Positions 48,824 through 52,659 of a DNA stretch of 64,000 nucleotides are shown one piece after another. Positions within the stretch are counted from its first letter, which is position 1, and every line of letters starts with the position of its first letter. Origin of the DNA: Pseudohongiella nitratireducens (GTDB lineage Bacteria > Pseudomonadota > Gammaproteobacteria > Pseudomonadales > Pseudohongiellaceae). Location of the stretch: the NCBI RefSeq assembly GCF_001642735.1, contig NZ_LWHM01000032.1, forward strand, positions 1 through 64,000. Direction: 5' to 3'. The position numbers and the translations under genes are program-made. The notes below the pieces were generated by a model. The model did no database searches, was not told where the DNA came from, and worked only from the letters and a program-made list of their open reading frames with translations.

Positions 48824-48846
48824 AAAATGGTATATCATAACATTTT
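48824..48846. promoter_or_regulatory. Zur box between znuC and znuA
   Basis: A 23 bp near-palindrome reads AAAATGGTATA, then T, then CATAACATTTT. The two arms differ at only a few positions, and it resembles the known gammaproteobacterial Zur consensus (GAAATGTTATANTATAACATTTC). It lies in the 80 bp divergent promoter region, so Zn-bound Zur would repress both znuCB and znuA. Confidence 0.8.
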
Positions 48847-48868
48847 AGATCCAATGCCCGGTTTTCCC

Positions 48869-49816
48869 ATGCTTTCTCGGAATATTACACGTATTGCTGC
48901 CATTTTGGTGGCAGTTCTCTTCTCGACCCTGCCTGTTTCTGCTTCGGCGGCACCTGTTGTGGCGGCGACGATAAAGCCTCTCCAGTTTATCGCGGCTGCG
49001 ATTACCGACGGTGTGACTGAGCCCAGGGTGCTGGTTCCGGAAAGCCAGTCCTATCATCACTTTATTGTCCGCCCTTCCACAGTCAGGCTTTTGCGTGAGG
49101 CTGACCTGGTGTTATGGGTAGGGCCGGAACTGGAAACGTACCTGGCCGATTCCATCAACGACTTCGCGAATGCAACGGTTCAGGCATTGGCCGTGTCCGG
49201 GCTGGCTGTGCACTATCTACCTGATATAGAAACAACGGGAGAAACCAATGTGCCAGAAAGTGGGCAGCATGCCGGCCACCAGCACCATGGTGTGAGTGGT
49301 ATTGATCCTCACATCTGGCTGAATACTCAAAATGCAGAGCAGGTTGCCACTGTCCTGGCTGAGCAGTTATCTGCTATTGATCCCGCTAATGAAGCTCGGT
49401 ATTTGCAAAACCTGGCGACCTTCCGGGTAGAGTTGCAGTTGATCAGGGAAAGTGTCGTACAGCGTTTGCAGCCCTATCTGGACCGACCTTATGCGGTATA
49501 CCACGATGCGTTTCAGTATTTTGAACAGGAGTTCGGCCTTTCCCACCAGCTGGTGATTGCCAACAGTGATGAGATTCAGCCTGGCGTTCGCAAACTGATG
49601 TCCTTGCGGGATGCATTCGCAAGCCAGGAGTTATCCTGTTTGATGGAGGATGTGACCAGCCAGGAGTCCACGATTAATACGGCGCTGGGTCGTGTTCAGC
49701 TCAACCGGATCAAAGCCGATACCACTGGCCAGAACCTGACATCTTCGCCTCGCGCTTACATTCAGTTGATCAATGATTTGGGGCTGGCATTTGCACAGTG
49801 TTTTAGTGATCATTAG
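48869..49816 (+). CDS. znuA: Zinc ABC transporter substrate-binding protein ZnuA
   Basis: This is the periplasmic Zn2+ receptor. From ATG 48869 the product is 315 residues with a Sec signal (MLSRNITRIAAILVAVLFST, cleaved after about SASA). ATG 48854 is also possible, while an ATG at 48827 lies inside the Zur box and is discounted. Candidate Zn ligands are His in SQSYHHFIVRPS, GIDPHIWLN and VYHDAFQYF, with an acidic residue in EDVTSQES. The usual His-rich loop is short (GQHAGHQHHG). Confidence 0.94.
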   Translation: MLSRNITRIAAILVAVLFSTLPVSASAAPVVAATIKPLQFIAAAITDGVTEPRVLVPESQSYHHFIVRPSTVRLLREADLVLWVGPELETYLADSINDFANATVQALAVSGLAVHYLPDIETTGETNVPESGQHAGHQHHGVSGIDPHIWLNTQNAEQVATVLAEQLSAIDPANEARYLQNLATFRVELQLIRESVVQRLQPYLDRPYAVYHDAFQYFEQEFGLSHQLVIANSDEIQPGVRKLMSLRDAFASQELSCLMEDVTSQESTINTALGRVQLNRIKADTTGQNLTSSPRAYIQLINDLGLAFAQCFSDH

Positions 49817-49881: not shown

Positions 49882-52659
49882 ATGGCATCCCCCAATCCGT
49901 TGATTCTGGTAGACGGTTCCTCTTATCTTTTCCGCGCATTTCATGCATTGCCTCCCCTGGTCAACAGCAAGGGGCAGCCGACCGGCGCTGTAAAAGGCGT
50001 GATCAGCATGATCCGCAGCTTGCAGAAAAACTATCCTGACAGCCCTGTCGCCATCGTTTTTGATGCCAAAGGCACGACATTTCGTAACGAGATCTACCAG
50101 GATTACAAGGCGCACCGGCCCCCGATGCCGGATGATCTGCGCAGTCAGATAGAGCCGATTCATCAGATTGTGAAGGCAATGGGTCTGCCCTTGCTGGTTA
50201 TTCCAGGTGTGGAGGCGGATGATGTGATTGGTACGCTGGCCTGCCAGGCGACCAGGGACAAGCGTGACACGCTGGTTTCAACAGGTGATAAAGACCTTTC
50301 CCAGTTAGTGAGTGATCACGTCACTCTGATTAATACGATGACAGACGAGCGCCTGGATCGTGAGGGTGTACTTAATAAATTTGGCCTGCCGCCGGAACGA
50401 ATTATCGATTTTCTGGCACTGACGGGCGACAAGGTTGACAACATTCCCGGTATTCCGGGATGTGGGCCCAAGACAGCGATCAAGTGGCTTCAGCAATACG
50501 ACTCGGTTCAGGGGGTGATTGAAAATGCTGCCGAGGTAGGTGGCAAGATTGGTGAAAAGTTACGAGCCAATATTGAACAGCTAGAGCTGTCTTATGAGCT
50601 GGCCACCATCAAACTGGATGTACAACTGGACCTCTCCTTATCTGAGCTCGTACCGACTGAGTCAGATCAGGAACAGTTGCTGGCGCTCTTTACTCAGATG
50701 GAGTTTCGAACCTGGATAAAAGAGTTACAAGACCAGGGCGTTGAGTTGTCAAAAGAGACGCTGCAGGATGTCCAGGATGAACTGGGCGTGGTAGCCGATG
50801 TTGCTGAGCAGGGTGAGGATGCGCCGGATATGTCAGCGCTGCAATCGGCGAAAGGCGACTATCAGCTGATCGAAGATGAAGCGGCGCTGAAAACTGCCTT
50901 GTCAGCGTTAAGGAAAGCCGGTCATTTTGCGCTGGAAGTCTTTGATGATGATGCGCCATACATGGAAGCGCGCATTATCGGTTTGGCATTTAGCGATCAG
51001 CCAGGTCAGGCATTTTACGTCCCCCTGGCTCATGACAGCCTGGAATCAGCCTCCGAACTGGATGGCAAAGCAGCACTGGCACTGATCAAGCCGTTACTGG
51101 AAGACCCGGATCTCGGCAAATTCTGCCATGACTGCAAACACGTCATCCATGTGTTGGAAAATGCCAATATTCAGTTGCGCGGCTGGCGCTTTGATAGTCA
51201 CCTGGCCTCGTATGTGTGGAATTCTGTTGCCAGTAATCACCAGCTGGAAAAAGTGGCACAAGAGCATCTGTCGCTTTCACTTGAAAGTAAGGATTCACTG
51301 ACGGGGAAAGGCAGGAAAAAGTTAGCTGTCAGTCAGCTCAGCCCTCAAGATGCGACAGCGTGGGCAGGTCTCAGGGCGGATGCTGTGCTACGCCTGGAGC
51401 AACTACTGACTTATGAGCTGAAGCAGGACGATAAACGCTGGGGCATCTATCACTATTATGAGCTGCCCCTCTGTGGTGTCCTGCAGCGCATGGAGCGCCA
51501 GGGTGTCGTCGTGGATGCAGCCAGCCTCGCGGGGCAATCTAAAGACCTGGCTAATCGTTTGGCAGAAATTGAAAAGGCGGTCTATGACCAGGCTGGCGAA
51601 GAATTTAATCTGGGCTCGCCCAAACAGTTACAGGCAATCCTGTTTGAAAAACTCGAGCTGCCGGTCATCAAGAAAACCCCGAAAGGTCAGCCTTCTACCG
51701 CAGAGGCAGTGTTGCAGGAACTGGCACTGGATTACGAACTGCCCAGCCTGATCATGGAACACCGGGGCATGAGCAAGTTGAAATCAACTTATACCGATAA
51801 ACTCCCAGCTCAGATTAACCCTGTCACCGGCCGGATTCATTCCCGTTTTCAGCAAGCAGTCGCCGCCACCGGGCGACTGTCGTCAACCGATCCAAACCTT
51901 CAGAACATCCCAATCCGCAGTGAAGCCGGTCGCAAGATCCGCCAGGCATTTGTGGCGGAGAAAGGCTATAAGCTGCTGGCAGCTGACTATTCCCAGGTTG
52001 AACTGCGCATCATGGCACATTTGTCGGGCGATAAAGGATTGCTTGATGCCTTCGCGAATGCCCAGGACGTTCACAAGGCGACGGCGGCGGAGGTTTTCGG
52101 GGTGGAACTGGAAGAAGTCAGTGCAGAGCAGCGCCGGCGAGCCAAAGCCATTAACTTTGGTCTGATTTACGGGATGTCGGCCTTTGGGCTGGCCAAGCAG
52201 CTGAAGATAGATCGCCATGACGCCCAGCATTATGTCGACAAATATTTTGAGCGCTATCCTGGTGTCAGTGATTACATGGAGAGAACCCGGGAGCAGGCGG
52301 AAGAGCAAGGTTATGTGGAAACATTATTTGGGCGGCGACTGTACTTGCCGGATATCAAAGCCGGTAATGGCATGCTGCGCAAGGCCGCTCAGCGCACGGC
52401 GATAAATGCGCCTATGCAAGGCACAGCGGCTGATATTATCAAGCAGGCCATGGTCGATATCGATCAGTGGTTAAAAACCGGTGTGCTCGATGCCAGCATG
52501 GTGCTGCAAGTCCATGACGAACTGATTTTTGAAGTCGCCGAAGCCGACATTGAACTGCTGAGCGAAGGGGTGCGGTTTCGCATGGCGACGGCTGCGGCAC
52601 TGGATGTGCCGCTAGTGGTTGATATTGGTACCGGTGATAACTGGGATGAGGCTCACTGA
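49882..52659 (+). CDS. polA: DNA polymerase I, predicted to lack proofreading
   Basis: The 925-residue product (E. coli 928) acts in Okazaki fragment maturation and repair. The 5' nuclease domain is intact ([45 protein letters not shown]). So is the polymerase domain (motif [14 protein letters not shown], motif [14 protein letters not shown], motif [11 protein letters not shown]). In the middle 3'-5' exonuclease domain, the positions matching E. coli D355, E357, D424 and D501 are E352, F354, V421 and R498, at a constant offset of 3. The catalytic metal site is therefore lost. The gene stands alone and its end overlaps the convergent engB by seven bases. Confidence 0.97.

Follow-up and report, generated by a model that had tools for sequence, protein, structure and literature searches.

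The polA gene and its former proofreading site

The window is the whole stretch of 64,000 nucleotides analysed here. It holds a gene for DNA polymerase I (Pol I) between a znuA-like gene, a name that we assume for its neighbour on the 5' side, and a convergent GTPase gene. The main features are as follows.

48827..49816, + strand: znuA-like gene, 5' of polA
49882..52656, + strand: polA, DNA polymerase I (Pol I orthologue), 925 aa; above-cut-off matches to NCBIfam NF004397 (1162 bits) and TIGR00593 (941 bits)
49900..50670, + strand: 5'-3' exonuclease (flap nuclease) domain; PF02739, PF01367
50860..51420, + strand: 3'-5' exonuclease-like domain, catalytic site lost, fold kept (predicted); PF01612, 40.8-44.7 bits in two profile searches
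51523..52650, + strand: DNA polymerase family A domain; PF00476, 548.8 bits
52653..53264, - strand: engB/yihA-like GTPase gene, convergent, downstream of polA

All PolA1 domains lie in a single chain, with Pfam matches to PF02739, PF01367, PF22619, PF01612 and PF00476, each above its cut-off. A znuA-like homologue was found upstream of polA in all four family loci checked, and in E. coli yihA is likewise convergent downstream of polA. Because of the profile matches and of its two neighbours, we regard polA, judged from its sequence, as the cell's ordinary Pol I orthologue; an accessory or phage-derived enzyme does not fit these data. The first-pass annotation described the motifs of the 5' nuclease and of the polymerase as intact, and they are identical to those of E. 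coli at 9/9 and 16/16 positions checked, respectively; these positions are taken to be catalytic.

The residues of the exonuclease site were mapped by a MAFFT alignment of the window protein with the polA product of E. coli K-12. The replacements are:

50935..50937, + strand: E352 at E. coli D355
50941..50943, + strand: F354 at E. coli E357
51142..51144, + strand: V421 at E. coli D424
51361..51363, + strand: W494 at E. coli Y497
51373..51375, + strand: R498 at E. coli D501

Every residue of the DEDDy motif (D355, E357, D424, Y497 and D501) is replaced. The same five pairs had been read by eye at a constant offset. HMMER aligns residues 326-925 with Klenow without a gap, and the agreement of MAFFT with that alignment at the five sites rules out misalignment as the cause. 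The earlier statement that all catalytic carboxylates are lost is correct for the exact residues but not for every charge, because the D355 position retains an acidic residue, E352. With the frame open throughout its 925 aa and no intact site in any of the 90 rows of the window's family, a sequencing error is unlikely. The protein would therefore be expected to lack 3'-5' exonuclease activity.

The AlphaFold2 model of the exonuclease-like domain, built from 52 sequences, has a mean pLDDT of 92.4. Foldseek returned E. coli Pol I entries as its best six matches, the top one being 1d8y (TMq 0.93, rmsd 1.4 Å), and the first five have TMq values of 0.93-0.94 over 190-192 columns. Both the model and the search place the domain in the RNase H-like DnaQ fold, so it is predicted to keep its fold. 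Alignment, structure prediction and fold search thus agree with the first reading of a preserved domain without its two-metal site.

Searching the window genome with the Pol I protein gave two matches at E <= 0.001. At E <= 1e-150 polA was the sole match, and a second, proofreading Pol I was rejected at that cut-off; the weaker match probably represents a 5' nuclease that stands alone, like those listed for relatives. A dnaQ match scores 299 bits, with the DEDDh residues readable by eye. No family-B polymerase (Pol II type) was found in any of the eight genus genomes tested, the window's included. Such a polymerase is present in 4/6 tested genomes of genus g4 and in 5/5 tested genomes of families f5 and f6 that also have the dead site; a link between loss of the site and loss of the family-B polymerase is therefore not supported. 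For the Y family (PF00817), the window genome gave four matches. As a separate observation, a 233-aa open frame resembling a Y-family polymerase (L218, G000:C33:61981-62427) is apparently a shortened near-copy of a 429-aa frame in L217, judged by eye over the first 60 residues. Some phage-collection records that name Salmonella enterica strains hold a full-length bacterial-type Pol I; they may be misfiled contigs that come from the chromosome or carry a prophage.

Distribution, rate and history of the loss

Rows were called active, or intact, when they carried D-E-D-Y-D at positions 355, 357, 424, 497 and 501 (E. coli numbering, which is also used below for 158, 362, 420, 426, 476 and 902). 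The alignment to close relatives proposed in the first-pass annotation gave no intact site among the 90 Pol I rows of the window's family (f1), compared with 124 of the 140 other gammaproteobacterial rows. The loss is therefore common to the whole sampled family and is not an isolated defect of the window genome. Outside the family the site is intact in 73 of the 80 rows of the same order and in 51 of the 60 rows of the class outside the order, and the earlier view that most gammaproteobacterial Pol I proteins keep these residues holds in this sample.

The 90 family rows come from 99 genomes searched, the window counted, and include partial rows where the exonuclease domain is covered. Genomes were dropped for a broken frame (G017), for fragments (G057, G076, G089, G092) or for showing at most a short or lone 5'-nuclease-like match to Pol I (G066, G095, G096, G097). 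The order rows represent 81 non-family matches from 85 genomes searched; G180 was left out, its match starting past the domain, and G118 gave no match at E <= 1e-150. The class rows were hand-picked from the upper, middle and lower parts of a list of 94 matches outside the order (104 genomes searched, eight without a match at the cut-off), and their intact fraction is not a random-sample estimate. The polA match of G017, a family genome that is 99% complete, is interrupted by 11 stop codons that leave several distinct open segments (L330, G017:C6:33297-36091), which reflects either a broken gene or an assembly fault. G095, G096 and G097 (98, 88 and 89% complete; L332, L333 and L331) have only the lone 5'-nuclease-like match and no Pol I.

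Within the family, the ligands at 424 and 501 are lost in all 90 rows. Position 501 is Lys in 35 rows, Arg in 25, Asn in 11, Gln in 10 and Cys in 7, so that 60/90 carry Lys or Arg. Position 424 is chiefly Ile, Leu, Gln or Val, and position 355 chiefly Ser, Ala or Asn. E357 is retained in 68/90 rows, the window not among them, and none of the four exact acidic residues is kept in 21/90, the window included. Residues L361, Y423, M443, R455 and F473, which we take to face or hold the bound 3' end in Klenow, are changed in many or most family rows. The exonuclease pocket thus appears, from these replacements, to have been dismantled beyond mere inactivation.

Outside the family, inactive rows show a scattered distribution: 10 changes of the active label are required on the Pol I tree of 130 rows, and family f38 holds one active and one inactive row (L143, L163). 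Because of these scattered exceptions, we conclude that losses of the exonuclease site occurred several times. In the window's family, a large one, the loss is both old and fixed. One class row (L190, DEDCD) is non-intact through Tyr497 alone. A Pol I of the same order (L139, G131, family f34) has a very diverged exonuclease domain that lacks every DEDDy residue.

Measured against the polymerase domain, the dead exonuclease domain evolves at about twice the rate of its active counterpart, still under strong purifying selection. The ratio of exonuclease to polymerase protein distance has a median of 3.36 for the family (43 disjoint pairs) and of 1.49 for active rows (40 disjoint pairs), with a Mann-Whitney p of 5e-15. 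Family pairs are on average closer than active pairs, but the difference persists within distance bins, for example 2.91 (family) against 1.39 (active) at a polymerase distance of 0.25-0.35. Median dN/dS values for the family are 0.115 in the exonuclease-like domain and 0.031 in the polymerase domain, and the former exceeds the latter in all 21 pairs with dS < 2 in both domains (33 pairs computed). One active pair treated by the same method gave 0.039 and 0.044, respectively. The higher distance ratio together with the low dN/dS indicates that constraint was relaxed and the domain kept; decay of the domain is ruled out, as its dN/dS stays well below 1.

The results conflict on whether the dead sites of f1, f5 and f6 have one origin or several. 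Exonuclease columns unite the three families with a support of 90 in 44 rows and 83 in 30 rows, and a 123-row FastTree of these columns does not group them. Non-exonuclease columns do not reject a single f1+f5+f6 clade in the set of 44 rows (p = 0.41) and reject it in the set of 30 (p = 0.0075). The 30-row set also rejects f1+f5 (p = 0.0097; 0.0031 without f6) and does not reject f5 with f37, its neighbours in the RpoBC tree (p = 0.31). That tree covers 28 of 30 genomes (RpoB 28, RpoC 27, one with a partial RpoB only) plus E. coli, with f5 represented by two rows. RpoB+RpoC rejects both f1+f6 (p = 7e-98) and f1+f5+f6 (p = 7e-44).

Pol I trees unite f6 with f1 (support 97, 97 and 96; 94 in a further analysis). 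When the f6 Pol I is made to join the group to which RpoBC assigns f6, the combined columns reject the placement (p = 5e-4). The 5' nuclease by itself rejects it too (p = 4e-14) without singling out f1+f6, and the polymerase domain by itself does not reject it (p = 0.29). The conflict is not special to f6, since Pol I disagrees with RpoBC elsewhere too: the RpoBC group of f1 and six active genomes is rejected (p = 0.00015), and the position of G115 also differs. It may therefore be partly single-gene noise. The f6 Pol I (L112, L153; L318, L320) groups with the window's family, with RpoB and RpoC placed elsewhere and the polA-engB order kept. Since that order is kept, any transfer would have been a replacement in place, which is possible for f6. 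Gene replacement, domain exchange and convergence after loss are all candidates, and convergence could itself mislead the trees.

Residues that replaced the site and their possible meaning

Several positions in and beyond the former pocket are nearly fixed in the family. In the window these are:

50956..50958, + strand: P359 at E. coli D362, where the signature His is missing
51130..51132, + strand: D417 at E. coli N420
51148..51150, + strand: H423 at E. coli G426
52576..52578, + strand: F899 at E. coli Q902

Position 362 is His in 82/90 family rows and in 0/124 active rows; the window has Pro and the seven further rows Gln. Asp occurs at 420 in 86/90 family rows and 0/124 active rows, and His at 426 in 90/90 and 23/124, respectively. 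Among rows readable at 902, in the polymerase domain, Phe is found in 86/87 of the family and 0/121 of the active ones. The same filter also let through, less cleanly, Leu at 476, which 6/124 active rows share. Four further polymerase positions passed the filter as well, as did position 158 in the 5' nuclease, which is Glu in 89/89 readable f1 rows, 3/3 f5 rows and 4/102 readable active rows, and not in f6. H362, D420 and H426 occur jointly in 78/90 family rows. The three f5 rows have all of H362, D420, H426 and F902, and both f6 rows have H362, H426 and F902 with Asn at 420. Among the 11 inactive rows outside f1, f5 and f6, H362 occurs in L192 only, D420 in L181 and L258, and F902 in none. 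As family markers that are absent from the active rows examined and recur in f5, H362, D420 and F902 are possibly new. No mention of the family or of the 362/420/902 set was found in the passages and listings consulted, which cover openly licensed papers; this is weak evidence of absence.

We propose that, very probably, this is an ordinary Pol I with its 5' flap nuclease and polymerase, whose proofreading was lost and whose exonuclease domain was kept as a folded scaffold. Such a Pol I would serve in Okazaki-fragment maturation and the filling of repair gaps. The two-metal site would have been lost before the sampled family diversified, and the dead domain would then have been retained in its place between the polymerase core and the 5' nuclease, serving as a folded scaffold, a role that it likely still has. 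Catalytic and 3'-end-binding residues would meanwhile have drifted or been replaced, D501 by Lys, Arg, Asn or Gln and D424 by mostly hydrophobic residues. At a misincorporated base, this Pol I would extend or dissociate instead of excising. Replication fidelity and chromosomal proofreading would rest on the DnaQ epsilon subunit, and errors made by Pol I would have to be limited by the selectivity of the polymerase or corrected by other repair; these cellular consequences are what we would expect from the loss.

Two sets of residues count against this proposal. The fixation of 362, 420, 426 and 902 exceeds what a passive scaffold would need. In an alternative reading the dead site was rebuilt, with the His-Asp-His set and Phe902 forming a new site for binding, docking or metal. 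The absence of H362, D420 and Phe902 from the active rows examined, the joint presence of the His-Asp-His set in most family rows and its recurrence in f5, and the recurrence of Phe902 in f5 and f6 favor this reading. However, the window itself lacks the His at 362, H426 may be retained ancestry, given its occurrence in active rows, and the set is not a general consequence of loss. The residues, whose contact is hypothetical, may also merely fill the emptied metal pocket. On balance, we consider a rebuilt site unlikely. In a broader form of this reading, the domain would have been rebuilt alike in at least two lineages, giving a class of Pol I without proofreading that is marked by these four residues and whose former active site has a new selected role (docking, DNA-holding or metal), with f6 perhaps reached by gene replacement; this appears doubtful to us, and more so than the rebuilt site itself. 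The second set consists of E357, an acidic residue at 359 (Asp or Glu in 60/90 rows) and the new D420, which from sequence could suggest weak or altered exonuclease chemistry. Catalysis might then survive through shifted carboxylates, namely these three in relatives (E357 with D420 in 66/90 rows, 48/90 also with Asp or Glu at 359), or E352, the following D355-D357 and D417 in the window. Against this stand the gapless alignment to Klenow, the complete loss of the 424 and 501 ligands with a basic residue so often at 501, the altered Y497 and 3'-end contacts in many rows, and the absence of E357 from the window. Surviving catalysis is thus highly improbable.

The loss could instead have been adaptive, if a Pol I free of the exonuclease were better at strand displacement or lesion bypass. 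In PMC12926913, inactivation is suggested to matter, perhaps, for translesion synthesis, citing the Pol I of H. pylori and B. subtilis. The four Y-family matches and the lack of a family-B match in the window genome would fit this picture, but the family-B polymerase is kept in most g4 genomes tested and in all tested f5 and f6 dead-site genomes, so the two losses are uncoupled. An adaptive origin appears unlikely. The scaffold reading remains the one that we favor.

Comparison with known polymerases

A close reference is E. coli Pol I (Klenow), an orthologue with 53% identity, a convergent engB/yihA neighbour and the same predicted exonuclease-domain fold. In contrast to the window protein, its D355/E357/D424/Y497/D501 site is intact. 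The window's family indicates that Pol I proofreading can be dispensed with in all members sampled, within the same class as E. coli, the model organism that has it; assumptions on repair fidelity based on E. coli should therefore not be transferred. Comparing the family with its active relatives is a natural way to ask what Pol I proofreading is for and why a dead domain is kept. A naturally exonuclease-free Pol I could also have practical use.

The first-pass annotation described the loss in Pol I as known in some bacteria such as Thermus. That it is known is correct, but it is far commoner: in PMC12926913, about half of the bacterial Pol I orthologues have DEDDy substitutions or an inactive exonuclease domain. 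According to the same paper, the substitutions are commonest in Firmicutes, Tenericutes and Actinobacteria, and Pol I proofreading is suggested to be often dispensable.

Two groups described there resemble the window protein. The PolA2/APEX actinobacterial polymerases, with an eclipsed exonuclease, share the vestigial exonuclease domain. However, they have no 5' nuclease and carry a clamp motif, QxxLF, in the vestigial domain, whereas the window protein has the 5' nuclease. A scan of the window protein for Q-x-x-[LMI]-[FLYW] found no match in the exonuclease-like domain, the only matches, at residues 263 (QEQLL) and 584 (QAILF), lying outside it. The other group is the inactive-exonuclease PolA1, defined in that paper as a canonical three-domain Pol I with DEDDy substitutions, and the window protein has exactly this make-up. 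The difference lies in its gammaproteobacterial lineage, where the great majority of rows outside the family are intact. The window Pol I is thus a known type of change found in a bacterial group where it is uncommon, and the parts worth following are its distribution within Gammaproteobacteria and the recurrent replacement residues.
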